DNA from: Streptomyces sp. cg36
GTDB lineage: Bacteria; Actinomycetota; Actinomycetes; Streptomycetales; Streptomycetaceae
DNA: 64,000 nt
Assembly (NCBI RefSeq): GCF_041080675.1
Contig: NZ_CP163520.1
Span: 3,038,001-3,102,000, forward strand
Direction of reading: 5' to 3'
Positions 39,739 through 57,891 of the stretch are shown piece by piece; positions within the stretch are counted from its first letter, which is position 1; every line of letters starts with the position of its first letter. A program made the translations under genes and the position numbers. Below the pieces are notes generated by a model. The model saw nothing but the letters and a program-made list of their open reading frames with translations, was not told the origin of the DNA and did not search any database.

Positions 39739-39750
39739 CTACGCGCGTAG
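39739..39750. promoter_or_regulatory. Putative nucleoside-regulon operator, pnp promoter
   Basis: Perfect palindrome CTACGCGCGTAG, shared with the deoC and add promoters. It lies 12 bp upstream of TACCCT (39763-39768), a -10-like element that ends 7 nt before the GTG of pnp. Binding here would cover the -35 region. Confidence 0.7.
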
Positions 39751-39775
39751 GACTCCAGCGGTTACCCTCGTCGAC

Positions 39776-40600
39776 GTGAACGCATCTGTTATTCCGGACA
39801 ACCTCCAGGGCGACCCCCACGCCGCCGCCGACGCCGCCGCCGCCCGCCTGCGCGAGCTGACCGGCGCCGAGACCCACGACGTCGCCCTCGTGATGGGCTC
39901 CGGCTGGGCGCCGGCCGCCGACGCGCTCGGTGAGCCCGAGGCCGAGTTCCCGGTCACCGAGCTGCCCGGCTTCCCGCCGCCGGCCGTCGAGGGCCACGGC
40001 GGCAAGATCCGCTCGTACCGGATCGGCGACAAGCGCGCCCTGGTCTTCCTGGGCCGTACGCACTACTACGAGGGCCGCGGCGTCGCCGCCGTCGCCCACG
40101 GCGTGCGCACCGCCGTCGCCGCGGGCTGCAAGACCGTCGTGCTCACCAACGGCTGCGGCGGTCTGCGCGAGGGCATGCGCCCGGGCCAGCCCGTGCTGAT
40201 CAGCGACCACCTGAACCTGACGGCCGCCTCCCCGATCGTCGGCGCCAACTTCGTGGACCTGACCGACCTGTACTCGCCGCGGCTGCGCGCGCTGTGCAAG
40301 GAGGTCGACCCCTCGCTGGAGGAGGGCGTCTACGTCCAGTTCCCCGGCCCGCACTACGAGACCCCGGCCGAGATCAACATGGTCCGCGTGCTCGGCGGCG
40401 ACCTCGTCGGCATGTCGACGGTCCTGGAGGCCATCGCGGCCCGCGAGGCGGGCGCCGAGGTGCTGGGCATCTCGCTGGTGACCAACCTGGCCGCGGGGCT
40501 GACGGGCGAGCCCCTCAACCACGAAGAGGTGCTCCAGGCCGGCCGTGACTCGGCCGCGCGCATGGGTTCGCTGCTGACGCGGGTACTCGACCGCATCTGA
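39776..40600 (+). CDS. Purine nucleoside phosphorylase (trimeric type)
   Basis: A 274-residue PNP of the class that splits inosine, guanosine and their deoxy forms to base and (deoxy)ribose-1-phosphate. Phosphate- and substrate-binding parts are present: [42 protein letters not shown], the MSTVLEA purine-site loop and VTNLAAG. The GTG at 39776 starts a protein reading [11 protein letters not shown]; there is no Shine-Dalgarno and the -10 is 7 nt upstream, so it is probably leaderless. It forms an operon with the sugar-phosphate mutase 51 bp downstream. The operator in front links it to deoC and add. Confidence 0.92.
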
Positions 40601-40651
40601 ACCGCACCGACCGATCCGCACCCTGAGCCGAACCGGAAGGGATTCACCGAC

Positions 40652-42292
40652 GTGACGCAGGACCTGATCGCGCGGGCCAAGGCATGGCTGGCCGAGGACC
40701 CGGACGGCGAGACGCGCGAGGAGCTGGCCAAGCTCATCGACAACGAGGAGCTCGACGAACTGGCCGCCCGGTTCGGCGGCACGCTCCAGTTCGGCACCGC
40801 CGGGCTCCGCGGCGAGCTGGGCGCCGGCCCGATGCGGATGAACCGCTCGGTCGTCATCCGCGCCGCCGCCGGTCTCGCCGCGTACCTGAAGGCGCAGGGC
40901 CAGGGCGACGGCCTGGTCGTCATCGGGTACGACGCGCGCTACAAGTCGGCCGACTTCGCGCGCGACACGGCCGCCGTGATGACCGGCGCGGGCCTGCGGG
41001 CCGCGGTGCTGCCGCGCCCGCTGCCCACCCCCGTCCTGGCGTACGCGATAAGGCATCTGGGCGCCGTCGCCGGCGTCGAGGTGACCGCCAGCCACAACCC
41101 GCCGCGCGACAACGGCTACAAGGTCTACCTCGGCGACGGCTCGCAGATCGTGCCGCCCGCCGACGCGGAGATCGCCGCCGAGATCGCCGCGGTGGCCTCG
41201 CTCGCCGACGTCCCCCGCCCCGAGTCGGGCTGGGAGACGCTGGGCGAGGAGGTCCTGGACGCCTATCTGGCGCGTACGGACGAGGTGCTGACCGCAGGGT
41301 CCCCGCGCACCGCCCGGGTCGTCTACACGGCCATGCACGGCGTCGGCAAGGACGTCCTGACGGCCGCCTTCGCCCGGGCGGGCTTCCCGGCGCCCGCGCT
41401 GGTGGCCGAGCAGGCCGAGCCGGACCCGGCGTTCCCGACCGTCGCGTTCCCCAACCCGGAGGAGCCGGGCGCGATGGACCTGGCCTTCGCGACCGCGCGC
41501 GCGGTCGGCCCGGACATCGTCATCGCCAACGACCCGGACGCGGACCGCTGCGCCGTCGCCGTGCCGGACGCGTCGGTGGAGGGCGGCTGGCGGATGCTGC
41601 GCGGCGACGAGGTCGGCGCGCTGCTCGCCCGCCACCTGGTGGACCGGGGCGTGAGCGGCGTCTTCGCCGAGTCGATCGTCTCGTCCTCGCTGCTCGGCCG
41701 GATCGCCGCCGCCGCGGGCCTGGGCCACGAGGAGACCCTGACGGGCTTCAAGTGGATCGCCCGCGTCGACGGCCTGCGGTACGGGTACGAGGAGGCGCTG
41801 GGCTACTGCGTCGACCCGGAGGGCGTCCGCGACAAGGACGGCATCACCGCCGCCCTGCTCGTCGCCGAGCTCGCCTCGGTCCTCAAGGAGCAGGGGCGCA
41901 CGCTCCTGGACCTGCTGGACGACCTGGCCGTCGAGCACGGTCTGCACGCCACCGACCAGCTGTCGGTGCGGGTGGAGGACCTCTCCGTCATCTCCGACGC
42001 CATGCGGCGGCTGCGCGAGAACGCGCCGACCGTGCTGGCGGGCCTGGCGGTCACCCGGGCCGAGGACCTCACCGAGGGCACCGAGGCGCTGCCGCCGACC
42101 GACGGTCTGCGCTACTACCTGGACGGCGCCCGCGTGATCGTCCGCCCCAGCGGCACCGAGCCCAAACTCAAGTGCTACCTGGAGGTCGTGGTGCCGGTCG
42201 CCGGCGCGGACGCCCTGGACGCGGCCCGCGCCACGGCGGCCGGGCTGCTCGCCGGGATCAAGCGGGACCTGGCGACCGCCGCGGGCATCTAG
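40652..42292 (+). CDS. Phospho-sugar mutase, probable phosphopentomutase role
   Basis: A 546-residue alpha-D-phosphohexomutase superfamily enzyme. The phosphoserine loop TASHNPPRDNGYK (near 150), the metal loop DPDADR (near 300), the sugar-binding loop in EEALGY, and the phosphate-binding RPSGTEPK near 495 are all intact. Annotated relatives are phosphoglucomutases or phosphomannomutases, but members of this size that sit with PNP and deoC often isomerise (deoxy)ribose-1-phosphate to the 5-phosphate; that is inferred from context here. The GTG follows GGAAGGG. Two hairpins follow. Confidence 0.88.
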   Translation: MTQDLIARAKAWLAEDPDGETREELAKLIDNEELDELAARFGGTLQFGTAGLRGELGAGPMRMNRSVVIRAAAGLAAYLKAQGQGDGLVVIGYDARYKSADFARDTAAVMTGAGLRAAVLPRPLPTPVLAYAIRHLGAVAGVEVTASHNPPRDNGYKVYLGDGSQIVPPADAEIAAEIAAVASLADVPRPESGWETLGEEVLDAYLARTDEVLTAGSPRTARVVYTAMHGVGKDVLTAAFARAGFPAPALVAEQAEPDPAFPTVAFPNPEEPGAMDLAFATARAVGPDIVIANDPDADRCAVAVPDASVEGGWRMLRGDEVGALLARHLVDRGVSGVFAESIVSSSLLGRIAAAAGLGHEETLTGFKWIARVDGLRYGYEEALGYCVDPEGVRDKDGITAALLVAELASVLKEQGRTLLDLLDDLAVEHGLHATDQLSVRVEDLSVISDAMRRLRENAPTVLAGLAVTRAEDLTEGTEALPPTDGLRYYLDGARVIVRPSGTEPKLKCYLEVVVPVAGADALDAARATAAGLLAGIKRDLATAAGI

Positions 42293-42306
42293 CCGCGCCC
42301 GGGCGC

Positions 42307-42348
42307 GGGGTGCGGCGACCGCACCCCGTACGGGTGAATCCCGTACGG
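42307..42348 (+). terminator. Tandem hairpins after phospho-sugar mutase gene
   Basis: First stem GGGGTGCGG/CCGCACCCC with loop CGA (42307-42327); immediately after it, a second perfect stem CCGTACGGG/CCCGTACGG with loop TGAAT (42326-42348). The two share a couple of bases and may be alternatives or work together. Confidence 0.65.
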
Positions 42349-42433
42349 CGGTCGGCGGATCGCCCACGGCCCTTCCCGGACCGGCGGGGCGAAGGTGGGC
42401 CCCGGTAGCCCGCCGAGCCCAGGAGCAGCCGCC

Positions 42434-43663
42434 GTGCCCCCGATCGCCTCACCGGCGGCCCGTACGCGCAGTCGTACGGGCCGCCGCGCCGTACCCGCCG
42501 CCCGCCGCCCCCGGGCCCCCGGCGGCGGCGCCGGTCCGCGACCGGTCCGCGACCGGGCCCGCCACGCGCTCCGGCGGGCCGCGCCCGCGCTGCTCGGCCA
42601 TCTCGCGGTGCGGCTGCTCGGCCTCGCGGTGCTCGCCAAGTGGGCCCACCTCCAGCACCACGGCGTGTGGACGACGCTGGCCACCTCCTGGGACTCGCAC
42701 TGGTACCTGGGCATCGCCGACCACGGCTACGACCATGAGCTCGGCACCCGCTACAACCACAACAACCTGGCGTTCTTCCCGCTCTACCCGCTGCTGGTGA
42801 AGGCGGTCGCGGCGGTGACGCCCGGCTCGCGCGCCAGCGTGGGCCTGCTGCTGGCCGTCGGCTGCTCGGCGGCGGCGGCCTGGGGCGTCTTCGCCGTCGG
42901 CGACCTGCTGTACGGGCGGCGCGCCGGTACCGCGCTCGCGGTGCTGTGGGGGGCGCTGCCGGTGGCCGTCGTGGAGTGGATGGGCTACACCGAGTCCCTG
43001 TTCACCGCGCTGACCGCGTGGGCGCTGTACGCGGTGCTGACCGGGCGGTGGGTGGCGGCGGGGGCGCTGGCGGCGCTCGCGGGGCTGACCCGGCCGACCG
43101 GGATCGCGGTCGCGGCGGCGGTCGGCCTGGCCGCGCTGACGGCGCTGTGGCGCGGCGGCCTCGCCCGGCGCCCGCTGGCGGGGGCACTGCTCGCGCCGCT
43201 GGGCTGGTTCGGGTTCGTGGCCTGGGTGGGGGTGCGGCTGGGCCGCTGGGACGGCTACTTCGCGGTGCAGCGGCTGTGGCGCAACGAGTGGGACGGCGGC
43301 GCGGACACCCTGCGCGAGCTGCGCGCCCTGCTGGTCTACGACCGTGCTCCAGCGCTGTTCCTGGTGGTGGTCTCGCTGGTGCTGATCGTGGCGGGCGGGC
43401 TCTTCCTGCTCTGTCTCGCCGACCGCCAGCCGCTCGCCCTGCTGGTCTTCAGCGGGGTGCTGCTGCTGGTGGTGTTCGGCAGCGGCGGCGTCTACTTCCC
43501 GCGCGCCCGCTTCCTCGTCCCCGGCTTCCCGCTGCTGCTGCCGCTCGCGGTCGCCCTGGCCCGGGCCCGGCGCCATGTGGCGGTGCTGCTGCTGACGGCG
43601 GCGGCCCTGTCGTCGGCCTGGCTGGGCGCCTACATGCTGCTGGTGTGGCCGGGGGCGCCGTAG
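42434..43663 (+). CDS. PIG-V-type mannosyltransferase family membrane protein
   Basis: A 409-residue polytopic protein with a basic, disordered first 45 residues and about ten membrane helices. The luminal loop after the first helix, TSWDSHWYLGIADHGYD, contains the WDxxWYLxIAxxGY motif with the catalytic-type Asp of GT-C glycosyltransferases of the PIG-V family, which use polyprenyl-phosphomannose; FFPLYPLLVK is also typical. It probably transfers mannose to a cell envelope acceptor. The GTG at 42434 follows AGGAGC by 7 nt. It is downstream of the nucleoside operon but separated by hairpins. Confidence 0.82.
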   Translation: MPPIASPAARTRSRTGRRAVPAARRPRAPGGGAGPRPVRDRARHALRRAAPALLGHLAVRLLGLAVLAKWAHLQHHGVWTTLATSWDSHWYLGIADHGYDHELGTRYNHNNLAFFPLYPLLVKAVAAVTPGSRASVGLLLAVGCSAAAAWGVFAVGDLLYGRRAGTALAVLWGALPVAVVEWMGYTESLFTALTAWALYAVLTGRWVAAGALAALAGLTRPTGIAVAAAVGLAALTALWRGGLARRPLAGALLAPLGWFGFVAWVGVRLGRWDGYFAVQRLWRNEWDGGADTLRELRALLVYDRAPALFLVVVSLVLIVAGGLFLLCLADRQPLALLVFSGVLLLVVFGSGGVYFPRARFLVPGFPLLLPLAVALARARRHVAVLLLTAAALSSAWLGAYMLLVWPGAP

Positions 43664-43676
43664 GGGCCGCGCCCGG

Positions 43677-44309
43677 TCAGCCGATGGCGGCCAGGACCGC
43701 GAGCAGGACGGCGCCGGCGGCGGCCGGGGCGATGACCTCGTAGGCCCAGCGCACGCCCGTCTCGCCCTGCGCGCCCTCGCGGGCCGCGTTGCGCTCGGCC
43801 AGCTCGCGCAGCTCGCGGATGGTGCGGTCGGTGGGGGCGACGGTCTTGTCGTCGGTGGCGGAGACGGCCGCCGAGGTGCGCCCGTACGGGTCGTTGGCCG
43901 CGTCCCGCTGCTGGGCCCGGGCGGCGCGCTTGCGCTGGCGCAGCGAGACCGGGATCGCCCACAGCTGGTACTTCTTGCCGCTGTGCTCGAACACCTCGCT
44001 GGAGTACCCGGCGCGGACGTCCGCGACCGAGGCCCACGGCAGGGTGATGGTGCGGAACGGGTTGCGGATCCGCAGCCGGTCCTGGCCCGCGAAGACCGCC
44101 GGGCGCAGGGTGAACGCGAAGATCAGCGGCACCGCGAAGAGCAGCCCCGCCAGCGCCAGCCAGGGCGCGCTGCCGTGGCCGCGCACCACCGCGTCCCCGC
44201 CGAGCCACAGCCCGAGCGCGAGCAGCAGCGCGCCGCCGGCGATGCCGCCGGAGGACCGGTAGACGCGGTCTGCGTAGGTGGGCTCGGCGGGCGGCGTGGG
44301 GCTCGTCAT
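43677..44309 (-). CDS. PH domain-containing membrane protein
   Basis: A 210-residue protein with two N-terminal helices (about 22-65), a bacterial PH-like domain (about 68-125: LRPAVFAGQDRLRIRNPFRTITLPWASVADV), a charged linker and one C-terminal helix (about 190-209). The pattern of conserved WASV after the NPFRTI strand is common in small actinobacterial bPH2-type proteins. Function unknown. It converges on the PIG-V gene with a 13-bp gap. Confidence 0.83.
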   Translation of the reverse strand: MTSPTPPAEPTYADRVYRSSGGIAGGALLLALGLWLGGDAVVRGHGSAPWLALAGLLFAVPLIFAFTLRPAVFAGQDRLRIRNPFRTITLPWASVADVRAGYSSEVFEHSGKKYQLWAIPVSLRQRKRAARAQQRDAANDPYGRTSAAVSATDDKTVAPTDRTIRELRELAERNAAREGAQGETGVRWAYEVIAPAAAGAVLLAVLAAIG

Positions 44310-44382
44310 GGGGCCGATTGTGCACTACGTGTTCGAGCGGGGCCGAGAGAGGGCGCGGGCGCGCCCGGCCCGCAACGCGTGC

Positions 44383-44415
44383 GGGGGTGCCGCCACGGTG
44401 AGTGGCGGCACCCCC
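44383..44415 (-). terminator. 14-bp hairpin downstream of secreted protein gene
   Basis: A perfect 14-bp stem (GGGGGTGCCGCCAC and complement), loop GGTGA, 16 bp beyond the stop of the gene at 44432-45694. Confidence 0.75.
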
Positions 44416-44431
44416 GGCGAGATGCGGAGCG

Positions 44432-45694
44432 TCAGGCGCGGGCGCCCGCGCGGCGCCGCAGCGCGACGAGGCCGAGCCCGGCCGCGCCCACCGACGCGAG
44501 GCCCGCGCCGCCCGCGAGGAGCGCGGTGTCGTGGCCGCCGCCGCCGTTGATCTCGGCACCGGCCGCGACCGCGCCCTTGGGGACGACCTGGACGCCGGTG
44601 GCGGTGGCGGCGGTGGCGGTGGTCTGCGTGGTGGTGCCGGTGCCGGAGGTCCCCGAGGTCCCGGCGGGCTTCGCGGTGCCCGTGGTGGCCGCGCAGCCCT
44701 GGCCGGCCGGCTTCTTCGGGAAGGCGAGGGTGGCCCAGCCGCTCTTGCCGCCGTGCACCCGCATCCGGAAGACCGGCCCGCTCGACAGGTCCCGCACCTC
44801 GGCGCCGCCCAGCACGCCGTACCGGTCGCCGGTGGAGAGCCGGTCGTAGACCGAGCCCTTGTCCGCGTTCAGCACCTCGGCGACCGCGCCCTTGGAGCCG
44901 TTGGAGAGCCGCAGGCTCAGCCCGCCGAAGGGGGTGCCGCTGGTGCGGACGGCCGTGCAGCCCTTGACGGTGTCGAACTCGCCGTCGAAGCCGCCCGCCG
45001 GGTTGAGCCAGGAGCCCACCTTGCCGCCGGCGTTGAGGCCCACCCACATGCCGCCGACCTGCCTGCCGTTCTCGGACTGTCCCTTCGGGCCGCCCGCCGT
45101 GACCGAGCCGCGCTGCACGCCGTCGCGCGCCGCCAGCTCCAGGACGTACCAGCCGTCGGCCTTCTTCCACAGCTCGCCGTAGGTGCCGTCGGCCAGCCTG
45201 CGCTTGCCGAGGTCCGTGCCGACCGGGGTGGTCGGGCCCTGGCCGCCGCCGCCGTGGTCCTTGGCGCCGCCGTCGTTCACGCGCTCGGGGAAGAGGACCG
45301 TGCGGGTGCCGGCGGCGTCGGTGACCTCCAGCATCGGGATCTCGGCGGTCGGGGCGGACAGCCGCAGCGACAGCGGGCCGGTCTTCGCCGAGGTGTGCTT
45401 GACGGTGAGGACCTCCAGGACCTTCCCCGCGTGGCCGTCGGAGGGCTTCCAGTCCGGGCCGACCGCGCGGATCCACGCCTCGGCGCCGCCGTCGGCGGTG
45501 TGGTTGCGCAGCACCGCGATGTAGCCCTTGGCGAGCGAGACGGTCAGGCCCGAGTAGCGGTCGCCGGTGGCGGCGGGCTTGGCGGTGGCCGACGCGCTGG
45601 GGGCGGCGAGCGCGCTGGTCGCGACGGCGACCGGGGTGAGGGCGACACCGACGACGACGGCGGTGGCGAGGACGGTGCGGAGGGCGTGACGCAT
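44432..45694 (-). CDS. Secreted, C-terminally anchored protein of unknown function
   Basis: A 420-residue exported protein. The signal peptide (residues 1-30, ending in ALA) leads into two ~130-residue Gly/Ser/Thr-rich domains that look like internal duplicates, each with a WxxVG or ELWKKADGWYVLEL type core, joined by a Thr-rich linker (about 335-365) typical of O-mannosylated wall-spanning stalks. A C-terminal hydrophobic segment and basic tail (ALRRRAGARA) resemble a wall-anchor tail, but no LPXTG or LAXTG motif is visible. ATG at 45694 has CGGGAG upstream. The product may sit in the membrane and display both domains outside. Confidence 0.75.
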   Translation of the reverse strand: MRHALRTVLATAVVVGVALTPVAVATSALAAPSASATAKPAATGDRYSGLTVSLAKGYIAVLRNHTADGGAEAWIRAVGPDWKPSDGHAGKVLEVLTVKHTSAKTGPLSLRLSAPTAEIPMLEVTDAAGTRTVLFPERVNDGGAKDHGGGGQGPTTPVGTDLGKRRLADGTYGELWKKADGWYVLELAARDGVQRGSVTAGGPKGQSENGRQVGGMWVGLNAGGKVGSWLNPAGGFDGEFDTVKGCTAVRTSGTPFGGLSLRLSNGSKGAVAEVLNADKGSVYDRLSTGDRYGVLGGAEVRDLSSGPVFRMRVHGGKSGWATLAFPKKPAGQGCAATTGTAKPAGTSGTSGTGTTTQTTATAATATGVQVVPKGAVAAGAEINGGGGHDTALLAGGAGLASVGAAGLGLVALRRRAGARA

Positions 45695-45835
45695 GACGAC
45701 TCCCGAGGAGACAAGTGGTGGAAGTGGGAAGAGCCGCATGCCGCTGTGGTCTCGTTCGGAGTGGGGCCGGGTGAGTCTTCGGCGGGCTGCGTGAACGAAT
45801 TTAGTGATCTTGTTCGGCGGAGCCGTCCGCTCTCT

Positions 45836-45851
45836 GTCACAGCGGTGTGAC
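45836..45851. promoter_or_regulatory. GTCAC-N6-GTGAC inverted repeat
   Basis: The sequence TGTCACAGCGGTGTGACA (45835-45852) has 6-bp arms around six bases. It lies 82 bp upstream of deoC and 142 bp upstream of the divergent secreted protein gene. It fits the loose AfsQ1 pattern GTnAC-N6-GTnAC but, unlike the copy before afsQ1, as an inverted rather than a direct repeat. Confidence 0.45.
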
Positions 45852-45907
45852 AGGGAACGGAAGGGCCTGTTCCGAAGCGGCCCTGGTCAGCGGGGCTGTA
45901 CAGGACG

Positions 45908-45919
45908 CTACGCGCGTAG
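45908..45919. promoter_or_regulatory. Putative nucleoside-regulon operator, deoC promoter
   Basis: CTACGCGCGTAG, identical to the sites before pnp and add. TATGCT (45921-45926) directly follows as a -10-like element and ends 6 nt before the GTG of deoC. A repressor bound here would block polymerase. Confidence 0.7.
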
Positions 45920-45932
45920 ATATGCTCATCTG

Positions 45933-46895
45933 GTGACCATGCCCACCAATGCACCTGCAGCTGCCCTCGCCGACGCGACCGCGTCGGACGCGGCACTGCG
46001 CCGCTTCCTCCACGGGCTCCCCGGCATCGACCCGGTGGGCCTGGAAGCGCGCGCCGCGTCCCTCGGCACCCGTTCGATCAAGACGACGGCCAAGGCGTAC
46101 GCCATCGACCTGGCCATCTCGATGATCGACCTGACGACGCTCGAAGGCGCGGACACCCCGGGCAAGGTCCGGGCGCTCGCCGCCAAGGCCGTCCACCCCG
46201 ACCCGCTGGACCGCACCACGCCGACCACCGCGGCCGTCTGCGTCTACCCCGACATGGTGGCCACCGCCAAGGCGGCCCTGAAGGGGTCGGACGTGAAGGT
46301 CGCGTCCGTCGCCACCGCCTTCCCGGCGGGCCGCGCCGCCCTCCCCGTCAAGCTGGCGGACGTGCGGGACGCCGTGGCCGCCGGCGCCGACGAGATCGAC
46401 ATGGTGATCGACCGGGGCGCGTTCCTGGCCGGGCACTACCTCAAGGTGTACGAGGAGATCGCGGCCGTGAAGGCCGAGTGCGGCGACCGGGCCCGCCTCA
46501 AGGTCATCTTCGAGACCGGCGAGCTCTCCACGTACGACAACATCCGCCGCGCCTCCTGGCTCGGCATGATGGGCGGCGCCGACTTCATCAAGACGTCGAC
46601 CGGCAAGGTCGCGGTGAACGCGACGCCCGCCAACACCCTGGTGCTGCTGGAGGCCGTGCGCGACTACCGCGCCCAGACCGGCGTCCAGATCGGCGTGAAG
46701 CCCGCCGGCGGCATCCGCTCGACCAAGGACGCCATCAAGTTCCTGGTCCTGGTCAACGAGACCGTGGGCGAGGACTGGCTGGACAACCACTGGTTCCGCT
46801 TCGGCGCCTCCTCGCTGCTCAACGACCTGCTGATGCAGCGTCAGAAGCTGGCGACCGGCCGCTACTCCGGCCCCGACTACGTGACGGTGGACTGA
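45933..46895 (+). CDS. deoC: Deoxyribose-phosphate aldolase
   Basis: A 320-residue class I aldolase that splits 2-deoxyribose-5-phosphate to glyceraldehyde-3-phosphate and acetaldehyde. The Schiff-base lysine lies in ADFIKTSTGK, and the proton-relay Asp and Lys in EIDMVIDRG and VKPAGGIRS. About 60 residues of extra N-terminus are normal for the long DeoC type. The start is either GTG 45933 or ATG 45939; GTG is preferred because the -10-like element ends 6 nt before it, implying a leaderless message. The aldehyde dehydrogenase genes that follow 5 bp later can dispose of the acetaldehyde. Confidence 0.92.
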   Translation: MTMPTNAPAAALADATASDAALRRFLHGLPGIDPVGLEARAASLGTRSIKTTAKAYAIDLAISMIDLTTLEGADTPGKVRALAAKAVHPDPLDRTTPTTAAVCVYPDMVATAKAALKGSDVKVASVATAFPAGRAALPVKLADVRDAVAAGADEIDMVIDRGAFLAGHYLKVYEEIAAVKAECGDRARLKVIFETGELSTYDNIRRASWLGMMGGADFIKTSTGKVAVNATPANTLVLLEAVRDYRAQTGVQIGVKPAGGIRSTKDAIKFLVLVNETVGEDWLDNHWFRFGASSLLNDLLMQRQKLATGRYSGPDYVTVD

Positions 46896-46900
46896 TCCCC

Positions 46901-49753: not shown

Positions 49754-49872
49754 GGTCGTCCACTCCTCTACGTATTGATTCGCGCACGCAGCGTAGTTGA
49801 GGTGTGATGCTCGATACCAACGGGCTCCCCGGGGGGTCCACCTCCCGGGTGGATGCCTCAGACTGGTGTCCC

Positions 49873-50508
49873 GTGACCGCACACGCCATCCCGACCCGTG
49901 TTGTTCTCCTCACGGGCCCCTCCGGTTCCGGAAAGTCCTCCCTCGCCGCCCGCACGGGTCTGCCCGTGCTGCGCCTGGACGACTTCTACAAGGAGGCCGC
50001 CGACCCCACCCTGCCGCGTGTGCCCGGCTCCACGGACGTCGACTGGGACTCGCCGGGGTCCTGGGACGCCGACGCGGCCGTGGCCGCCGTCGTCGAGCTG
50101 TGCCGCACCGGACGCACGGCGGTGCCCGAGTACGACATCGCCACCAGTTCCCGGACCGGCACCAGCCTCTTCGGCATCGACCGCACCCCGCTCTTCGTCG
50201 CCGAGGGCATCTTCGCGGCGGACATCGTGGACCGGCTGCGCGAGCACGGGGTGCTGGCCGACGCGCTCTGCCTGCGGGGCCGCCCCTCGACCACGTTCCG
50301 GCGGCGGCTGGCCCGCGACCTCAAGGAGGGGCGCAAGTCGGTGCCGTTCCTGCTGCGGCGGGGCTGGCGGCTGATGCGGGCCGAGCGCGGCATCGTGGCC
50401 CGCCAGACCGCGCTGGGCGCGCACCCGTGCGGCAAGGAGGAGGCGCTGGGCCGGCTGGCCGCGGCAGCCGCGGGCCGGCGCGCCGCCGCACCCGCCGTGC
50501 AGGTCTGA
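49873..50508 (+). CDS. udk: Uridine kinase-like P-loop protein
   Basis: A ~211-residue kinase with Walker A GPSGSGKSS close to the N-terminus, a DDFYKE motif (typical of uridine kinases, where the Asp binds the nucleoside), a WDSPGSWD segment and an arginine-rich lid, RRRLARDLKEGRKS. It should phosphorylate uridine or cytidine in salvage, or a related substrate. The start is uncertain: GTG at 49873 gives the family length, while ATG at 49807 with GAGG close upstream would add 22 non-conserved residues. It lies between the deoC cluster and sigQ. Confidence 0.82.
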   Translation: MTAHAIPTRVVLLTGPSGSGKSSLAARTGLPVLRLDDFYKEAADPTLPRVPGSTDVDWDSPGSWDADAAVAAVVELCRTGRTAVPEYDIATSSRTGTSLFGIDRTPLFVAEGIFAADIVDRLREHGVLADALCLRGRPSTTFRRRLARDLKEGRKSVPFLLRRGWRLMRAERGIVARQTALGAHPCGKEEALGRLAAAAAGRRAAAPAVQV

Positions 50509-50550
50509 CCCCGCGCCCGCCGTCCGGGTAGCCCGCGGCCGGAAACGGAA

Positions 50551-50594
50551 GAGGCGGGACCGAGTGGGCCCCCCGGCCCCTTCGGTCCCGCCTC
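50551..50594. terminator. 13-bp hairpin between udk and sigQ
   Basis: Perfect stem GAGGCGGGACCGA and complement with an 18-nt loop, 42 bp after udk and 104 bp from the end of sigQ. A likely bidirectional terminator for convergent genes. Confidence 0.7.
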
Positions 50595-50698
50595 GTTCCC
50601 CCGTTGCCCGTACGCCCGGCGCCTCCCCCGAGACACCGTCCCCCGTACGCTCCCCCCAGCTCCCCGTACTCCGGCGGCTGCCACCGCCGGGCCCGCCT

Positions 50699-51448
50699 TC
50701 AGGCCACCAGCTCGCCGAAGGACTCTTCCTCGTCACGGCCGAAGGAGAGGACGTCGTCCTCGCGCAGCCGGCGGAGCGACCGCCAGATGCTCGACTTCAC
50801 CGTGCCGACACTGATGTCGAGGATGTCCGCGATCTCCGGGTCGGTGCGGCCCTCGTAGTACCGCAGGACCAGCATGGTGCGCTGGAGTTCGGGCAGCCGC
50901 GCCAGCGCCTGCCAGAGCACCGCGCGCAGCTCCGTGCCGCGCATCGCGTCCGTGTCGCCCGCCGTCTCCGGCAGCTCCTCGGTCGGGTACTCGTTCAGCT
51001 TGCGGCGGCGCCACGCGCTGATGTGGAGATTGGTCATGGTGCGGCGGAGGTAGCCCCCGACCGCGGCCTTGTCGCTGATCCGGTCCCAGGCCCGGTAGGT
51101 CGAGAACAGCGCGCTCTGCAGCAGGTCCTCGGCCTCGAACCGGTCGCCGGTCAGGTGGTAGGCGGTGGCGTACAGGGAGGCCCGGCGCTCCTGCACATAG
51201 GCCGTGAACTCGGCCTCCGAGGCGGAACGCTCCCCCGTGGCCCCCCCGTACGCCGCATCCCCGCCGGTCACCGCGCCCTTGAAGGGCGAGGTCGGCACCG
51301 AGTCGAGCACCGTCATGTACGTCTGGTGCTGACGCCCGGTGCCGCGAGCGCACCCCCGTCCGCTCACGGCACCGGACTTCTCGCTCCGCACGACGTCGTG
51401 GAGACGCGTGACAACTGCGCTTGAGGTGGTGCTGTGCAGTGCGTTCAT
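50699..51448 (-). CDS. sigQ: ECF-type sigma factor SigQ
   Basis: A 249-residue sigma-70 family protein of the SigE-like actinobacterial group. Region 2 is at about residues 80-145 (FTAYVQERRASLYATAYHLTGDRFEAEDLLQSALFSTYRAWD) and region 4 at about 175-240 (LPELQRTMLVLRYYEG, then the helix-turn-helix ending SSIWRSLRRLRE). Divergent placement from afsQ1-afsQ2 matches S. coelicolor, where SigQ opposes AfsQ1 in control of antibiotic production under nitrogen stress. The ATG at 51448 follows ACGGGGGGCG. The N-terminal 75 residues are long and may be partly untranslated, since MTVLDSVPTSP at about residue 45 is an alternative start. Confidence 0.88.
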   Translation of the reverse strand: MNALHSTTSSAVVTRLHDVVRSEKSGAVSGRGCARGTGRQHQTYMTVLDSVPTSPFKGAVTGGDAAYGGATGERSASEAEFTAYVQERRASLYATAYHLTGDRFEAEDLLQSALFSTYRAWDRISDKAAVGGYLRRTMTNLHISAWRRRKLNEYPTEELPETAGDTDAMRGTELRAVLWQALARLPELQRTMLVLRYYEGRTDPEIADILDISVGTVKSSIWRSLRRLREDDVLSFGRDEEESFGELVA

Positions 51449-51533
51449 CTCGCGCCCCCCGTCGGTGGAGTCCTGTTTCGGTCGGTACGAGGAAGAGCTT
51501 GCCCGGCCACTTTCATGGCGCTGTCCGGCGACT

Positions 51534-51549
51534 GTCACAGCCCTGTCAC
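51534..51549 (+). promoter_or_regulatory. AfsQ1 binding box
   Basis: GTCAC AGCCCT GTCAC: a direct repeat of GTCAC with exactly six bases between, as required by the published AfsQ1 consensus GTnAC-N6-GTnAC. It sits between the divergent sigQ and afsQ1 genes, 86 bp from the sigQ ATG and 80 bp from the afsQ1 GTG, so it can control both. Confidence 0.8.
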
Positions 51550-51628
51550 AGCAGGCTGTGAGCGTTGCGGTGCGGGCGAAGTCCGGGGGAGGTCGAACTC
51601 CGCTCCCCCATGGGCCAGAATGACCTCC

Positions 51629-52306
51629 GTGCCTTTCCTGTTGCTGATCGAGGACGACGACGCCATCCGCACGGCGCTCGAACTCTCCCTGTCCCGCCAG
51701 GGCCACCGTGTGGCCGCCGCGGCGACGGGCGAGGACGGGCTCAAGCTGCTGCGCGAGCAGCGGCCGGATCTGGTCGTGCTGGACGTGATGCTGCCCGGCA
51801 TCGACGGCTTCGAGGTGTGCCGTCGCATCCGGCGCACCGACCAGCTGCCGATCATCCTGCTGACCGCGCGCAGCGACGACATCGACGTGGTGGTCGGCCT
51901 GGAGTCGGGCGCCGACGACTACGTGGTCAAGCCGGTGCAGGGCCGGGTGCTCGACGCCCGGATCCGCGCGGTGCTGCGCCGCGGCGAGCGCGAGGCGACC
52001 GACTCGGCGACCTTCGGCAGCGTGGTGATCGACCGCGCCGCGATGACGGTCACCAAGAACGGCGAGGACCTCCAACTGACGCCGACCGAGCTGCGGTTGC
52101 TGCTCGAACTGAGCCGCCGCCCCGGTCAGGCGCTCTCCCGCCAGCAGCTGCTGCGGCTGGTGTGGGAGCACGACTACCTGGGCGACTCCCGGCTGGTCGA
52201 CGCGTGCGTGCAGCGGCTGCGGGCCAAGGTCGAGGACGTACCGTCGTCGCCGACCCTGATCCGCACGGTGCGCGGGGTCGGCTACCGCCTCGACACCCCC
52301 TCGTGA
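51629..52306 (+). CDS. afsQ1: Two-component response regulator AfsQ1
   Basis: A 225-residue OmpR-type regulator, the length of S. coelicolor AfsQ1 and nearly identical in the stretches I remember. The receiver domain has acidic pocket EDDD (residues 8-11), phosphoacceptor Asp52 (VVLDVML), Thr in LLTAR, and Lys in VVKPVQG; a winged helix occupies about 130-223 (LTPTELRLLLELSRRPGQ, GVGYRL). It controls antibiotic synthesis, nitrogen assimilation and development. The GTG start is chosen to match the known N-terminus; CAGAAT ends 7 nt upstream, so it may be leaderless. Confidence 0.94.
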   Translation: MPFLLLIEDDDAIRTALELSLSRQGHRVAAAATGEDGLKLLREQRPDLVVLDVMLPGIDGFEVCRRIRRTDQLPIILLTARSDDIDVVVGLESGADDYVVKPVQGRVLDARIRAVLRRGEREATDSATFGSVVIDRAAMTVTKNGEDLQLTPTELRLLLELSRRPGQALSRQQLLRLVWEHDYLGDSRLVDACVQRLRAKVEDVPSSPTLIRTVRGVGYRLDTPS

Positions 52307-52346
52307 CCGCTCCCGGCCGAACCCAAGAAAGCAGCGATTCGCAAAC

Positions 52347-53837
52347 GTGAAGAAGGCGATACTCGCCGGCCTCCGCTGGACCAGCCTGCGCCTGCGTCTG
52401 GTCGTCGTGTTCGCGCTCGTCGCCCTGACCGCCGCGGTCTCCGCGTCGGGGATCGCGTACTGGCTGAACCGCGAGGCCGTCCTGGTCCGCACCCAGGACG
52501 CGGCGCTCGGGGACTTCCGGCAGGAGATGCAGAACCGGGCGGCCTCGCTGCCGCTGCGGCCGACCGCGCACGACCTCCAGGTGACCGCCCAGCAGATGGC
52601 GGCCAGCAGCCGCTCCGGCTACCACGTCAGCTCCGGCTACCAGGTGCTCCTGGTGGACGAGCGGGACCCGGGCAAGCCGATCGTGGGCGCGTCCGACGTG
52701 GACCGCTTCACGCTCGACGACGTGCCCGGCTCGCTCCAGGAGGCGGTGGGCAAGAAGCAGAAGGTCACGGACAGCAACGACTATCCGTACCACCTGTTCT
52801 GGCAGCGCCGCACGCTGCGCGGGAAGCCGTACCTGATCGGCGGGACGAAGATCATCGGCGGTGGCGCGACCGGCTACATGCTGGCCTCGCTCGACCAGGA
52901 GCGCCAGGACCTCAACTCGCTGGCCTGGTCGCTCGGGATCGCCACCGGGCTCGCGCTGCTCGGCTCCGCGCTGCTGGCGCAGGCCGCCGCGACGACCGTG
53001 CTGCGGCCGGTCCAGCGCCTGGGCGACGCGGCCCGCCAGCTCGGCGAGGGCAAGCTGGACACCCGGCTGCGGGTGTCGGGCACCGACGAACTGGCCGACC
53101 TGTCGCGGACGTTCAACAAGACGGCCGAGAGCCTGGAGAAGAAGGTCAGCGACATGAGCGCGCGGGAGGAGGCGAGCCGCCGGTTCGTCGCCGACATGTC
53201 GCACGAGCTGCGGACGCCGCTGACCGCGCTGACGGCGGTCACCGAGGTCCTGGAGGACGAGGCGGACAGCCTCGACCCGATGATCGCGCCCGCCGTGCAG
53301 CTGGTGGTCTCGGAGACCCGGCGGCTGAACGTGCTGGTGGAGAATCTGATGGAGGTCACCCGCTTCGACGCCGGTACGGCCCGGCTGGTCCTCGACGACG
53401 TCGACATCGCCGACCAGATCACCGCGTGCATCGACGCGCGGGCCTGGCTGGACGCGGTGGACCTGGATGCCGAACGCGGCGTCATGGCGCGGCTCGACCC
53501 GCGCCGCCTGGACGTGATCCTGGCCAACCTGATCGGGAACGCGCTCAAGCACGGCGGCTCCCCGGTCCGGGTCTCGGTGCGGGTGGAGGGCGAGGAGCTG
53601 GTGATCGCGGTACGGGACCACGGCCCGGGCATCCCCGAGGACGTGCTGCCGCACGTGTTCGACCGGTTCTACAAGGCGAGCGCGTCCCGGCCCCGTTCGG
53701 AGGGCAGCGGGCTCGGCCTGTCCATCGCGATGGAGAACGCGCACATCCACGGCGGCGACATCACGGCCGCGAACTCGCCCGAGGGCGGCGCCGTGTTCGT
53801 GCTGCGGCTGCCGCTCGGCGGGGGTGAGGAGGCGTGA
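52347..53837 (+). CDS. afsQ2: Two-component sensor kinase AfsQ2
   Basis: A 496-residue membrane histidine kinase. Two helices (about residues 14-36 and 190-212) flank a ~150-residue extracytoplasmic sensor; a HAMP domain follows (about 212-265), then the H-box FVADMSHELRTPLTAL near 290, and an ATPase domain with N-box NALKHGG, G1 DHGPGIPE and GSGLGLSI. It phosphorylates AfsQ1. The GTG at 52347 lies 40 bp after afsQ1. Its stop overlaps the start of the lipoprotein gene by 4 nt. The in vivo signal is not known; in S. coelicolor glutamate as nitrogen source is linked. Confidence 0.94.
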   Translation: MKKAILAGLRWTSLRLRLVVVFALVALTAAVSASGIAYWLNREAVLVRTQDAALGDFRQEMQNRAASLPLRPTAHDLQVTAQQMAASSRSGYHVSSGYQVLLVDERDPGKPIVGASDVDRFTLDDVPGSLQEAVGKKQKVTDSNDYPYHLFWQRRTLRGKPYLIGGTKIIGGGATGYMLASLDQERQDLNSLAWSLGIATGLALLGSALLAQAAATTVLRPVQRLGDAARQLGEGKLDTRLRVSGTDELADLSRTFNKTAESLEKKVSDMSAREEASRRFVADMSHELRTPLTALTAVTEVLEDEADSLDPMIAPAVQLVVSETRRLNVLVENLMEVTRFDAGTARLVLDDVDIADQITACIDARAWLDAVDLDAERGVMARLDPRRLDVILANLIGNALKHGGSPVRVSVRVEGEELVIAVRDHGPGIPEDVLPHVFDRFYKASASRPRSEGSGLGLSIAMENAHIHGGDITAANSPEGGAVFVLRLPLGGGEEA

Positions 53838-54454
53838 GGGACTCGGTGGGAACGCGTCTGGCGGGCGGGGCGCTCGCCCTGCTGGCCCTGGCCGGCGCCG
53901 CCACCGGCTGCGGCATCCGGCCCACGGCGGTCCCGGTGGACGCCGGGCCCGCGCCGTCCCGGGTGCCCTGCGAGGTGCCGGGCAACCCGACCCCGCAGTT
54001 CGAGGGCGTGACCGTACGGATCTACCTGGTGTGCGGGGCGCAGCTGGTGGCGGCCGAGCGTTCGGTGCGGATCCCGGAGGGGCGGGCGTCGGCCGACCGG
54101 CTGCTGTTCGCGCAGACGCTCCTGTCCGAGCTGGAGGTCACCCCGTCCGGCGACGAGAAGGCCGCCGGGTACACCACGGACGTACGGGGTCCGCTGACGG
54201 TCACCGGCGCGCGCAAGGGCGATCCGGCCGGGGCGCTGCGGCTGACGCGCCGCCCCGAGGACCTGCCGGCACCGGCGCTCTCGCAGATCGTCTGCACGTT
54301 CGCGGAGAACACGCCGACCTCCTCGGGCAGCCGCCAGGTGGTGCTCGGCGGCCCGACCGACGATCCCGCCCGGGGCTACGCCTGCACGGCGGAGATGAAG
54401 TCGCGCCCGGACGCCTCGCCCACCCTGGGCGACATGTTGCGCCCGGCCCCGTGA
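53834..54454 (+). CDS. Lipoprotein of the AfsQ operon
   Basis: A 206-residue lipoprotein: signal peptide with lipobox ATGC (lipidated Cys at about residue 26), followed by a ~180-residue extracytoplasmic domain with GerMN-like features. Translation is coupled to afsQ2 through GTGA. In S. coelicolor the gene in this position is the third member of the afsQ operon. It could modulate the AfsQ2 sensor at the outer face of the membrane, as several actinobacterial lipoproteins do for their kinases (inference). Confidence 0.85.
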   Translation: MRDSVGTRLAGGALALLALAGAATGCGIRPTAVPVDAGPAPSRVPCEVPGNPTPQFEGVTVRIYLVCGAQLVAAERSVRIPEGRASADRLLFAQTLLSELEVTPSGDEKAAGYTTDVRGPLTVTGARKGDPAGALRLTRRPEDLPAPALSQIVCTFAENTPTSSGSRQVVLGGPTDDPARGYACTAEMKSRPDASPTLGDMLRPAP

Positions 54455-54542
54455 GCCCCGCCCCCGCCGCGCGCGGGTGGGGGCGCCGGGGCCGTCTTCG
54501 GCACGCGGAACCGATCGTGCCGCACCGGTCGTCTTGGGGGGC

Positions 54543-55100
54543 GTGCAACAGCGTCATGGTGTGGGCGGCGGCGCCGCCATCCGGTTCCGCGCGGCGGGAT
54601 GCGCTCTTCTCCTCGCGCATCTGACGCTGGTCGCGTCTCTCACCCTGCGGCCCCGCGACGTCGTGTGGGTGGCCGCGCCCAATCTGACCCCGCTCGCCGG
54701 GATCCGCGCCGACCTGGCGCTGGGGACGCTGGAGGCGGTCGAGCGCATCGGCGCCGGGCTGCTGCTCCTGGCCCCGCTGGGCGTGCTGCTGCCGCTGGTG
54801 GGCGGGCGCCTCGACGTCTCCCCGGTGGCCTCCCTGCTGCGGACGGCCGCCGCCACGGCGCTCGTCTCGCTCGGCATCGCCCTGCTCCAGACGGGGGTGC
54901 CGGGGCGGGTGGCGGACGTGGACTCGCTGCTCCTGAACACGGCCGGGGCGGCGCTCGCCCACATCGCCGTGGTGCCCGCCGCCCGGCTCGCGCTGCGCCG
55001 CCGCCGGGACCGGGCCGTGCCGCGCCCGGCCCCGGTCTCCCACCCGGGCCCGGCTCAGGGTCGTACCCCGACGATTCCCAGGGTCGGGATCGCCCCGTAG
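54543..55100 (+). CDS. VanZ-like membrane protein
   Basis: A ~185-residue protein with four to five hydrophobic segments and an Arg/Pro-rich tail, in the pattern of VanZ/YgaH family proteins (ALLLAHLTLVASLTLRP, then NLTPLAGI and the acidic VDSLLLNTAGA block). VanZ proteins are linked to teicoplanin tolerance in enterococci, but most members have no known role. The start is uncertain: GTG at 54543 or GTG at 54477 upstream. It follows the AfsQ lipoprotein gene by about 90 bp and may be read from its own promoter. Confidence 0.8.
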   Translation: MQQRHGVGGGAAIRFRAAGCALLLAHLTLVASLTLRPRDVVWVAAPNLTPLAGIRADLALGTLEAVERIGAGLLLLAPLGVLLPLVGGRLDVSPVASLLRTAAATALVSLGIALLQTGVPGRVADVDSLLLNTAGAALAHIAVVPAARLALRRRRDRAVPRPAPVSHPGPAQGRTPTIPRVGIAP

Positions 55101-55189
55101 TCCGACGTTTTGCCCGCTTCCCGGGGGCAGGATCGAGTCATGGCGCAAACGCCACGCACCAGCCACGACTCGGCCCCGAAGGAGCCCTC

Positions 55190-55390
55190 ATGAACACCCT
55201 CACCCGCCCCCGCGACGGCCGGATGATCGGCGGCGTGTGCGCGGCGCTGGCCCGGCGCTTCGGCACCTCGGCCACCACGATGCGCGTGCTCTTCGTGGCG
55301 TCCTGTCTGCTGCCGGGCCCGCAGTTCCTGCTCTACCTCGCGCTGTGGGTCCTCTTCCCGGCCGAGAAGACCCCGAGCACCGCCTGGTGA
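55190..55390 (+). CDS. PspC domain-containing protein
   Basis: A 66-residue protein made of one PspC domain: DGRMIGGVCAALARRFGTSATTMRVLF followed by a membrane helix (about 40-60) ending LWVLFPAEK. PspC domains bind or signal envelope stress in many bacteria; small stand-alone copies like this are frequent in Streptomyces. The ATG at 55190 has AAGGAG 6 nt upstream. It converges on a lipoprotein gene. Confidence 0.92.
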   Translation: MNTLTRPRDGRMIGGVCAALARRFGTSATTMRVLFVASCLLPGPQFLLYLALWVLFPAEKTPSTAW

Positions 55391-55421
55391 CCCCGGCGGC
55401 GGGCCGCGCGGGGCGCCGGGC

Positions 55422-56138
55422 TCAGCCCAGTACCTCGCGGACCTTCGCGAGCTGCTTGTCCGCGACCTCCCTCGGCACCTCCACCAGCGGCTGCGCCCGG
55501 CCCTCGACGGGCGCGCCGAGGTTGATCGTCATGAAGCGCACGATCGTCGGGCCCTGGCGCACGACGACGATGTGCACCGGCGTGTCCACGTTCACCTGGG
55601 TCGACGTGGCCGACCAGCTGACCGACTCGTCCCCGCCGACGCGGTACGGCCGCGCCCTCACCTGCCGGTAGACGGAGTTGGTGCCGCCGAGTTCGGCCCG
55701 GAAGCCGGTGCACCCGGCGAGCGCCGCCCGCAGGTCCTTGATCAGCTTCTCGGCGTCGGGCCGGGCGTAGTCGCTGAGCGAGGCGGCGACCGCGAGGCCG
55801 AGGCGCCGCTGCGAGCCCAGCCCCCGGTTGACGGTCTCGCGCGCCTTGGGGCTCGGCCGGTCGCCCATGACGTCGGCGAGCGGCTGGCACCGCCCGCGGT
55901 CGGCCTGCGGGCGGCCCTGGCCCTGCGCGGTGGTGTCGGCGGAGACCTGGTAGCCGGGCACGTCCCCCTGTTCGAGGGCGGCCCGCTGCAGCTTGGTGCG
56001 CCCGGCGGCCGAGGCCGGGGTGCCGCCCCGGGCGGACCCGGACCCCTTGCCGTCGCCCCCGCCGGAGGAGCCGCACGCGGCGGTGAGGCACAGCGCCGAC
56101 ACCGTCAGTACGGCGAGTCCGGTCGCCTTCACACGCAT
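55422..56138 (-). CDS. Lipoprotein of unknown function
   Basis: A 238-residue lipoprotein: lipobox LTAACG (Cys at about residue 22), a disordered Gly/Ser/Lys linker, then a ~180-residue domain with two Cys (RCQPL and GCTGF) that could pair. Similar Streptomyces lipoproteins are of unknown function. ATG at 56138 is chosen as it gives a compact signal peptide; a GTG 18 bp upstream is an alternative. No partner gene is evident. Confidence 0.8.
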   Translation of the reverse strand: MRVKATGLAVLTVSALCLTAACGSSGGGDGKGSGSARGGTPASAAGRTKLQRAALEQGDVPGYQVSADTTAQGQGRPQADRGRCQPLADVMGDRPSPKARETVNRGLGSQRRLGLAVAASLSDYARPDAEKLIKDLRAALAGCTGFRAELGGTNSVYRQVRARPYRVGGDESVSWSATSTQVNVDTPVHIVVVRQGPTIVRFMTINLGAPVEGRAQPLVEVPREVADKQLAKVREVLG

Positions 56139-56199
56139 CCTGGAAACCCTACTCACCTGTCAATCGCCTGCGTACGAGCCGCGATCCTGACACACGCGC

Positions 56200-56237
56200 G
56201 GCGGGGCGCACACCCGCAACCGGGTGTGCGCCCCGCC
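56200..56237 (-). terminator. 17-bp hairpin downstream of small secreted protein gene
   Basis: A perfect 17-bp stem GGCGGGGCGCACACCCG and complement with a CAAC loop. It lies 40 bp past the stop of the gene at 56278-56574. Confidence 0.78.
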
Positions 56238-56277
56238 ACAACGCCTCAAAGCACCGCCAGGCGGTACGTTTCGGCCA

Positions 56278-56574
56278 TCAGCCGCCGAGCGGCAGACCGC
56301 CGCCGAGGCCGCCGACCGGCAGACCGCCGAGCAGGCCGCCCACCGGGTCGGTGGCGCCGGCCGGTACGGCCGAGGCGCCCTTGCCCAGGGCGTTCTGACC
56401 GGCGGTCAGGGACTCGGCGGCACCCATCGGGAGCTTCTTGGTCACGCCCGACAGAACGGGGAGTTCGGGAAGGCCGGCGGCGGCGGGCGCGGCGGCGGCC
56501 GAACCGGCGGCAGCGGCGGCGAAGGCGACACCGACAGCGGCGGTACCGAGTGTCTTGACGGCAGACTGCTTCAT
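56278..56574 (-). CDS. Small secreted Gly/Leu-rich protein
   Basis: A 98-residue exported protein: a signal peptide cut near residue 28 (AAAA), a 40-residue middle (LPELPVLSGVTKKLPMGAAESL), and a low-complexity C-terminus of GG-LP repeats. There are no cysteines. It resembles abundant small secreted Streptomyces proteins that are often annotated by default as ATP-binding, which this one shows no evidence for. Its role is unknown; a surface-coat function is possible. Confidence 0.78.
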   Translation of the reverse strand: MKQSAVKTLGTAAVGVAFAAAAAGSAAAAPAAAGLPELPVLSGVTKKLPMGAAESLTAGQNALGKGASAVPAGATDPVGGLLGGLPVGGLGGGLPLGG

Positions 56575-56708
56575 CAGGAATTCATCCTAGGGAAGGGGAT
56601 GTGAGCGGCTCTGCAAGCTAGTCAGACCGCCGTGCGCGCCGCAAACCCCGACACCACCGGGAAACGGCCGGTGAATCAACTCCCCCGGCCGTTCCGGCGA
56701 TTGAACTA

Positions 56709-57863
56709 TTACCCCATGGGCGCGGTAGACCCGCTGGTCGCAGCGGTCTGCTTGAACAACCATTCGGATTTCAGCTCGGCGTATCCGGGCTTGATGACGT
56801 CATTGATCATCGCGAGGCGTTCGTCGAAAGGAATGAACGCTGATTTCATCGCATTGACAGTGAACCACTGCATGTCGTCGAGCGTGTAGCCGAACGCCTC
56901 GGTCAGCCGCTCGAATTCCTGGCTCATGCTGGTGCCGCTCATCAGCCGGTTGTCGGTGTTCACGGTGGCCCGGAAGTGCAGCCGGCGCAGCAGCCCGATC
57001 GGGTGTTCGGCGTAGGAAGCGGCGGCGCCGGTCTGGAGGTTGGACGTCGGGCACATCTCCAGCGGGATCCGCTTGTCCCGCACGTACGCGGCGAGCCGGC
57101 CCAGCTTCACCGTGCCGTCCCCGGCGACCTCGATGTCGTCGATGATCCGCACCCCGTGGCCCAGCCGGTCGGCGCCGCACCACTGGAGCGCCTGCCAGAT
57201 CGACGGGAGGCCGAACGCCTCGCCCGCGTGGATGGTGAAGTGGTTGTTCTCGCGCTTGAGGTACTCGAACGCGTCCAGGTGCCGGGTGGGCGGGAAGCCC
57301 GCCTCGGCGCCCGCGATGTCGAAGCCGACGACGCCCGAGTCCCGGTAGGAGTTGGCCAGTTCGGCGATCTCCAGGGCGCGGGCGGCGTGCCGCATCGCGG
57401 TGAGCAGGGCGCCGACGCGGATGCGGTTGCCCGCCTCGCGGGCCCGGCGCTCGCCCTCCCGGAAGCCCTCGTTGACGGCTTCCACGACCTCCTGGAGGGT
57501 CAGCCCCTTCTCCAGGTGCTGCTCCGGCGCGTACCTCACCTCGGCGTAGACGACGCCGTCCTGCGCCAGGTCCTCGGCGCACTCGGCGGCGACGCGGAAG
57601 AGCGCGTCGCGGGTCTGCATGACGGCGCAGGTGTGCGCGAAGGTCTCCAGATACCGCTCCAGGGAACCGGAGTCGGCGGCTTCCCGGAACCAGATGCCGA
57701 GCTTGTCGGCCTCGGTCTCGGGCAGACCGGTGTACCCGGTCTGTTCAGCGATCTCGATGATGGTGCCAGGACGCAGACCGCCGTCGAGGTGGTCGTGGAG
57801 CAGCACCTTCGGGGCGCGGCGGATCTGGTCCGTGGTCGGTACGTCGGTGGTCTGGCTCGTCAT
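56709..57863 (-). CDS. add: Adenosine deaminase
   Basis: A 384-residue zinc hydrolase that turns adenosine and deoxyadenosine into the inosine forms, feeding the PNP encoded at 39776. Zinc ligands are His23 and His25 (HDHLDG), with HAGEAFG (near 215), GHGVRI, and the later NTDNR with the metal-binding Asp; catalytic Glu is in HAGEA. The ATG at 57863 has no Shine-Dalgarno; TAGAGT ends 6 nt upstream, so it is likely leaderless, and the CTACGCGCGTAG operator lies just beyond. It is a single gene followed by the small secreted protein gene. Confidence 0.94.
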
Positions 57864-57879
57864 CTGCGCACTCTAGCCC

Positions 57880-57891
57880 CTACGCGCGTAG
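57880..57891. promoter_or_regulatory. Putative nucleoside-regulon operator, add promoter
   Basis: CTACGCGCGTAG, third copy in the window. On the minus strand it is 4 bp upstream of TAGAGT (57875-57870), which ends 6 nt before the add ATG. Confidence 0.7.

Follow-up and report, generated by a model that had tools for sequence, protein, structure and literature searches.

A 64,000-nt stretch of the Streptomyces sp. cg36 genome (contig NZ_CP163520.1, positions 3,038,001 to 3,102,000; hereafter the window) possesses a cluster of nucleoside genes in which one 12-bp palindrome, CTACGCGCGTAG, recurs, lying over the pnp, deoC and add promoters. We propose that this palindrome is the operator of a LacI-family protein encoded 1.2 Mb from the window (G000:C1:4316047-4317066) and that it marks a regulon for nucleic-acid scavenging. 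For the binder and the regulon taken together we estimate, from sequence comparison, a probability of roughly 0.87.

The palindrome over nucleoside-gene promoters

Exact copies of the 12-mer begin at positions 39739, 45908 and 57880, as the initial annotation had reported, and no fourth lies within the window. The features concerned are the following:

39739..39750, operator copy 1 (TCTACGCGCGTAGG), upstream of pnp, as also in further genomes of the genus
39776..40600, plus strand, pnp, purine-nucleoside phosphorylase (TIGR01698, 338 bits, over the NCBIfam cut-off; PF01048)
45908..45919, operator copy 2 (GCTACGCGCGTAGA), upstream of deoC
45933..46895, plus strand, deoC, deoxyribose-phosphate aldolase (TIGR00126, over the NCBIfam cut-off; PF01791)
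57880..57891, operator copy 3 (TCTACGCGCGTAGG on the minus strand), 16 bases before the add start codon
56709..57863, minus strand, add, adenosine deaminase (NF006847, 646 bits, over the NCBIfam cut-off; PF00962)
62814..64000, minus strand, deoA, thymidine/pyrimidine-nucleoside phosphorylase, whose longest open reading frame (ORF) begins at 64148, beyond the window end

The whole genome (9,022,416 bases) holds four exact copies, all inside 29 kb, against none for the reversed-pattern control. The fourth copy (C1:3106678, or 68678 in window numbering) lies 4.7 kb beyond the window, before the ATPase gene of a Bmp-type ATP-binding cassette (ABC) transporter. A one-mismatch copy, CTACGCGCATAG (64139-64150), lies across the point where the longest deoA ORF begins, a two-mismatch copy, GTAACGCGCGTAGA, stands at 69932 before bmpA, and cdd is placed between the transporter genes and deoA. 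In its full form the operator is the 14-mer TCTACGCGCGTAGA.

Promoter geometry was read by eye. At deoC a single base separates the 12-mer from TATGCT (45921-45926); translation may begin at GTG 45933 or ATG 45939 (the family search was run from 45945), and the GTG would be a leaderless start. At add, four bases lie between the 12-mer and TAGAGT and 16 between the 12-mer and the ATG at 57863. The initial annotation had placed each copy just upstream of a -10-like element, which describes deoC and add, where the site adjoins that element, but not pnp, where a gap of 12 bases to TACCCT (39763-39768) means that the 12-mer covers the -35 region. The GTG start of pnp is possibly leaderless.

Extending the search to other genomes, as had been suggested, gave two to six exact copies of the 12-mer in all 121 sampled genomes of the genus and zero to three of the reversed pattern. 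An order sample contained it in all 104 genus members and in 3 of 15 genomes of other genera, and a chosen set of 38 other genomes (four of them also among those 15) contained it in three; exact copies are rare in other genera. None of the five distinct other-genus loci carrying it matched the window-cluster proteins used as queries, and in two of the five it lies inside an ORF read by eye as inosine monophosphate (IMP) dehydrogenase. In five genomes of the genus, codons 3-7 of a second adenosine deaminase gene coincide with a copy of the 12-mer.

A wider set of putative target genes

The proposal of a nucleoside regulon is well supported, and the regulon is larger than first proposed: the same site precedes functionally linked genes in several species. 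Within this genome, the places matching the 12-mer with at most one mismatch include sites before deoA, an NCS1 permease gene, a gene for a secreted 5'-nucleotidase-like protein, an NCS2 permease gene and purS. The 10-mer ACGCGCGTAG occurs at 18 places, 13 of which sit before genes or at their first codons. These genes comprise pnp, deoC, add, the transporter ATPase gene, bmpA, the NCS1 permease gene and the 5'-nucleotidase-like gene; a secreted HNH (GmrSD_C) nuclease gene, in which the site overlaps codons 4-7; and genes for a guanyl-RNase (PF00545), a DUF4429 protein, a CpdB/5'-nucleotidase-like protein (two sites 19 bp apart) and a secreted nuclease-like protein (PF03372, below cut-off).

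Seven other genomes of the genus were searched with TCTACGCGCGT, in which the right half is variable, and yielded 116 occurrences against 12 for the reversed control. From these genomes 78 stretches were taken, leaving out, in each genome, the three cluster places assigned by position to pnp, add and deoC (read in only some cases) and the second add of two genomes (G207 and G161). A gene was tallied where an exact copy lay between 350 bases before and 120 bases inside the start of the query; a genome scored as absent is one in which no exact copy was seen, which is not proof of no site. All seven genomes carry the site at the 5' end of the genes for a Bmp-type binding protein, an ExeM/NucH-like secreted nuclease, the secreted HNH nuclease and the DUF4429 protein. 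The CpdB/5'-nucleotidase-like gene carries it in six genomes and the transporter ATPase gene in five (an extra G161 row is a cross-hit near purS), followed by the genes for an RNase and an M4 peptidase (four each), an acid phosphatase, the NCS1 permease and PurS (two each), and a PLD-like nuclease and an S1E protease (one each). Of the 71 sites counted after 22 loci had been set aside, 67 have a purine at the second variable position of the right half.

Before the DUF4429 gene, TCTACGCGCGT stands 57-69 bases ahead of the homology start in all seven genomes, and a copy precedes this gene in the genome of the window as well. In four genomes, the first codons of the gene for the secreted M4 metalloprotease are covered by the site, reflecting either regulation or coding coincidence. 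Six of the seven genomes have a copy adjoining a terminator-like hairpin where an HATPase gene (PF13581 in L127) ends, with no promoter role seen; the gene converging on it, where called, we take to be DUF397.

Part of the data runs counter to the proposed regulon and its regulator. In the genome of the window, the places with at most one mismatch number 15 against 29 for the reversed control, and ACGCGCGTAG gives 22 matches against 14. Five of its 18 places (L100, L101, L112, which is the same place as L093, L114 and L117) look like chance. Copies of TCTACGCGCGT inside ORFs for TPR (six of seven genomes), LAL (two), AfsR-like (two) and oppA-like (one) proteins look like coding coincidence, and a further 16 places in the seven genomes had no match among the query families. 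Because the own-genome counts are weak by themselves, the case rests on which genes carry the sites and on the other species.

Chance recurrence, or an element unrelated to any regulator, would draw on this shortfall of one-mismatch matches below the reversed control and on the loose pattern in the window: allowing two mismatches, the 12-mer gives 5 matches there against 4.99 in shuffles, which makes this pattern uninformative by itself. Against it stand the presence of the 12-mer in 121 of 121 genomes, the 116 occurrences against 12 and the functional coherence of the targets. We agree with the initial annotation that the recurrence is hard to explain by chance and regard that explanation as negligible.

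A LacI-family protein as candidate regulator

Members of the LacI family bind palindromic operators with a central CG; the CcpA and lac operators served as a comparison. TCTACGCGCGTAGA has this form, which suggested a LacI-family protein; TCTAnnCGnnTAGA at more distant homologs has it as well. Within the LacI and DeoR families, the genes of the regulators themselves were screened for a site. The genome of the window contains 15 genes with a LacI-type helix-turn-helix (HTH) over cut-off, and the HTH sequence AGTSTAVVSYV occurs in only one of the 14 that were seen (the HTH of L207 was not displayed). This gene (C1:4316047-4317066, minus strand) lies directly downstream of a GlnR-like response-regulator gene, and its product contains PF00356 (51.9 bits) and PF13377 (108 bits), both over cut-off. 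A three-mismatch site is found nine bases before its start, and the half-site CGCGTAGACT lies just before the start in all 16 genus genomes examined, overlapping a -10-like element.

The protein and the operator occur together in nearly all sampled genomes of the genus. An ortholog is encoded in 120 of the 121 genomes used for the operator count; the sole exception is G050 (82% complete), in which no LacI match was found. Among 32 genomes searched, the protein is present in all 16 of the genus at 84-100% identity and reaches at most 43% elsewhere, and a class sample of 148 genomes yields nine beyond the genus that encode homologs, with best identities of 38-46%. The sites, their conservation and this co-occurrence are direct observations.

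The pairing extends to distant homologs. A scan with peptides of a homolog, including VVSYVMNN from the HTH, covered 84,980 species by one genome each and gave 40 loci; the first 30 were displayed, and the HTH was readable in 29 (L269 is a fragment). The strict TCTAnnCGnnTAGA is present in 22 of these 29 loci (250,084 bases) and in none of 42 control loci, which total 208,548 bases and are shorter on average. In all 16 loci L246-L261, from Microbispora, Nocardiopsis, Nonomuraea, Streptosporangium, [Actinomadura] and several Streptomyces records, TCTAAnCGnTTAGA lies 44-89 bases upstream of the match. Two Pantoea loci (L264, L275) have an exact TCTACGCGCGTAGA about 1.75 kb upstream, a Pragia locus (L265) carries the one-mismatch form TCTACGCGAGTAGA twice, and three Salinibacterium loci (L266-L268) carry the one-mismatch form TCTACGCGGGTAGA. 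The residues preceding the helix vary with the operator: VTR, as in the genus of the window, pairs with an inner CG, and TL pairs with an inner AT or AA; L263 and L274 have TR-type helices yet no site. A nucleoside hydrolase gene (PF01156) neighbours the homolog in L264, L265, L266 and L247, and an adenosine deaminase gene (PF00962) does so in L232.

Eight Streptomyces records (L248-L252, L254-L256) encode a LacI relative closer to that of Microbispora, with TCTAAWCGTTTAGA before its gene. In L249 this gene is divergent from one read by eye as encoding a nucleoside hydrolase.

Further counterpoints concern the LacI protein itself. Its own gene has a half-site only, the other half carrying three mismatches in the genome of the window, and the overlap with the -10-like TAGACT could explain part of the conservation. 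Since VVSYVMNN was a search peptide, the loci found by the scan share the helix by construction; nor do related homologs count as independent. Three Nocardia loci (L270, L272, L273) have only a 9-of-10 form, TCTAATCG(A/T)TTAGC, and four of the 29 helix-sharing loci (L262, L263, L271, L274) have no site. A site (9 or 10 of 10 key bases) accompanies three of eight further class-level homologs and is lacking in the other five.

A different binder had been named in the initial annotation, namely the DeoR-family protein encoded in the window, with a deoxyribose phosphate as inducer. The window itself contains two regulator genes:

36067..37023, minus strand, DeoR-family regulator (PF08220 and PF00455), probably not the binder of the operator
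58803-59843, LysR-family regulator gene, within the nucleoside cluster; no connection with the operator was noticed

The DeoR gene is close to the nucleoside-gene cluster, its product has a DeoRC sensor domain, and it is present in all 11 genus genomes searched, where its promoter looks strongly conserved; yet no copy of the 12-mer with two or fewer mismatches was found in these 11 DeoR loci (L046-L056). Homologs with 54-70% identity occur in 11 genomes of two other families (eight of one, three of the other), and the recognition helix SEVTVRRD is identical in all seven of those aligned. Ten of these 11 genomes lack the exact 12-mer (altered operators were not searched there), and the copy in the eleventh lies away from the cluster genes used as queries. 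Moreover, three of the homologous genes adjoin an ABC ATPase gene. The LacI protein, which explains the site across phyla, fits better. Binding by the DeoR-family protein is not supported by these comparisons; we reject it as the most likely assignment and consider it very improbable.

Repeats of the CGATC/GATCG type were seen by eye near five of the other-family DeoR homologs (L057, L058, L059, L062, L068), in the first three of which the ABC ATPase genes adjoin. As a weak lead, these repeats are possibly the true DeoR operator.

Predicted mode of control and relation to known systems

Binding by the LacI protein, its ligand and the direction of control are what we infer from here on. Sites beside the -10 element (deoC, add), over the -35 region (pnp) and over codons 4-7 (HNH nuclease) would block transcription, which makes repression the likeliest mode. 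The LacI protein most likely acts as a repressor sitting on core promoters or start codons. It would silence an extracellular step (secreted nucleases, guanyl-RNase, secreted nucleotidase-like enzymes and phosphatases), the uptake of nucleosides and nucleobases (bmpA, the ABC ATPase and NCS1) and intracellular breakdown (pnp, add, deoA and deoC), and it probably also limits its own gene. A nucleoside-derived ligand would release the repressor, and nuclease action would in this way feed forward into uptake and catabolism. We lean somewhat towards release by such an inducing ligand as against control by a corepressor.

The same LacI protein might instead activate some of its targets, as the range of site positions, from the -35/-10 spacer to codons 4-7, could suggest. 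However, all three sites in the window, like several of the others, overlap a core promoter or a start codon, positions at which occupancy would prevent initiation, and we consider activation quite improbable.

The presence of purS among the targets does not fit simple induction by nucleosides and counts against the scheme above. With the nucleobase permeases in the target set, it makes a PurR-like mode a serious rival, in which a purine corepressor would promote binding of the same LacI protein and a purine-acquisition regulon would open when purines are scarce. The purS site has one mismatch in the genome of the window and recurs as an exact TCTACGCGCGT in two of the seven other genomes; nucleobase permeases and nucleases would fit purine acquisition, and PurR is among the closer NCBIfam and PDB relatives of the LacI protein. 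On the other hand, deoA and deoC are catabolic, LacI homologs adjoin nucleoside hydrolase genes, and the scores of RbsR and CcpA equal or exceed that of PurR. On balance we hold corepression by purines to be unlikely, and release of the LacI repressor by a nucleoside-derived ligand is preferred.

The LacI protein scores nearest to RbsR, PurR, GalS, CytR and CcpA and reaches no equivalog cut-off in NCBIfam (score/cut-off in bits: CytR 163/436, UriR 114/550, PurR 173/501, RbsR 170/531); CcpA, RbsR and PurR score alike as relatives in the NCBIfam and PDB comparison. LacI-family regulators of nucleoside genes are already known, namely CytR of E. coli and UriR of Corynebacterium. Like the protein described here, CytR governs genes of nucleoside uptake and catabolism; it acts with CRP on loose operators, whereas a tight 14-bp operator and secreted nucleases are involved here. 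UriR is likewise an actinobacterial LacI-family regulator of nucleoside use, but the score on its model is below cut-off. PurR and RbsR of E. coli are, with CcpA, among the closer sequence relatives and share a palindromic operator with a central CG; they differ in operator sequence, and the scores on their models are below cut-off. The deo regulon of E. coli also places deo genes under one regulator, DeoR, but the local DeoR-family protein reaches only 73.5 bits on the DeoR model (cut-off 244), and its loci are without the operator.

In genome G056, the product of the gene upstream of the LacI gene matches solved response regulators, among them entry 4o1h, named GlnR. In S. coelicolor, the LacI gene SCO4158 sits downstream of glnR/sco4159 (PMC9739823), and the shared position downstream of glnR makes the LacI protein the SCO4158 ortholog by synteny. 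This gene order also fits the reading of the genus as Streptomyces. Passages of PMC9739823 that deal with SCO4158 describe its protein as abundant in phosphate limitation and suggest that it might regulate glnR; they assign it no operator or regulon. An ArgR-box was predicted near SCO4158 (PMC5839063), and this box and phosphate limitation are possible further inputs to the regulator. The SCO4158 promoter, used as a constitutive promoter in PMC4365011, may be self-controlled.

We found no report of the motif in Streptomyces or of a SCO4158 regulon among open-licence papers, though regulon databases or Meng 2012 could hold one; nor did we find, in the open-licence literature, one that brings uptake and catabolism together with secreted nucleases and phosphatases under this operator or that connects the operator with the SCO4158 protein.

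For nucleic-acid use in Streptomyces, the analysis supplies an operator, a regulator and a list of targets that can be put to the test, and it gives the SCO4158-type LacI protein a likely regulon. One circuit, next to the nitrogen regulator gene glnR, would join the uptake and breakdown of nucleosides to secreted nucleases and phosphatases, and there is a hint of a role for the uncharacterised DUF4429 family. More tentatively, and at somewhat less than even odds, we speculate that one genus-wide LacI switch beside glnR runs the whole of Streptomyces nucleic-acid feeding, from secreted nucleases to purS, DUF4429 and, in some species, an M4 protease, and that it could serve to recycle DNA and RNA from mycelium dying in development.

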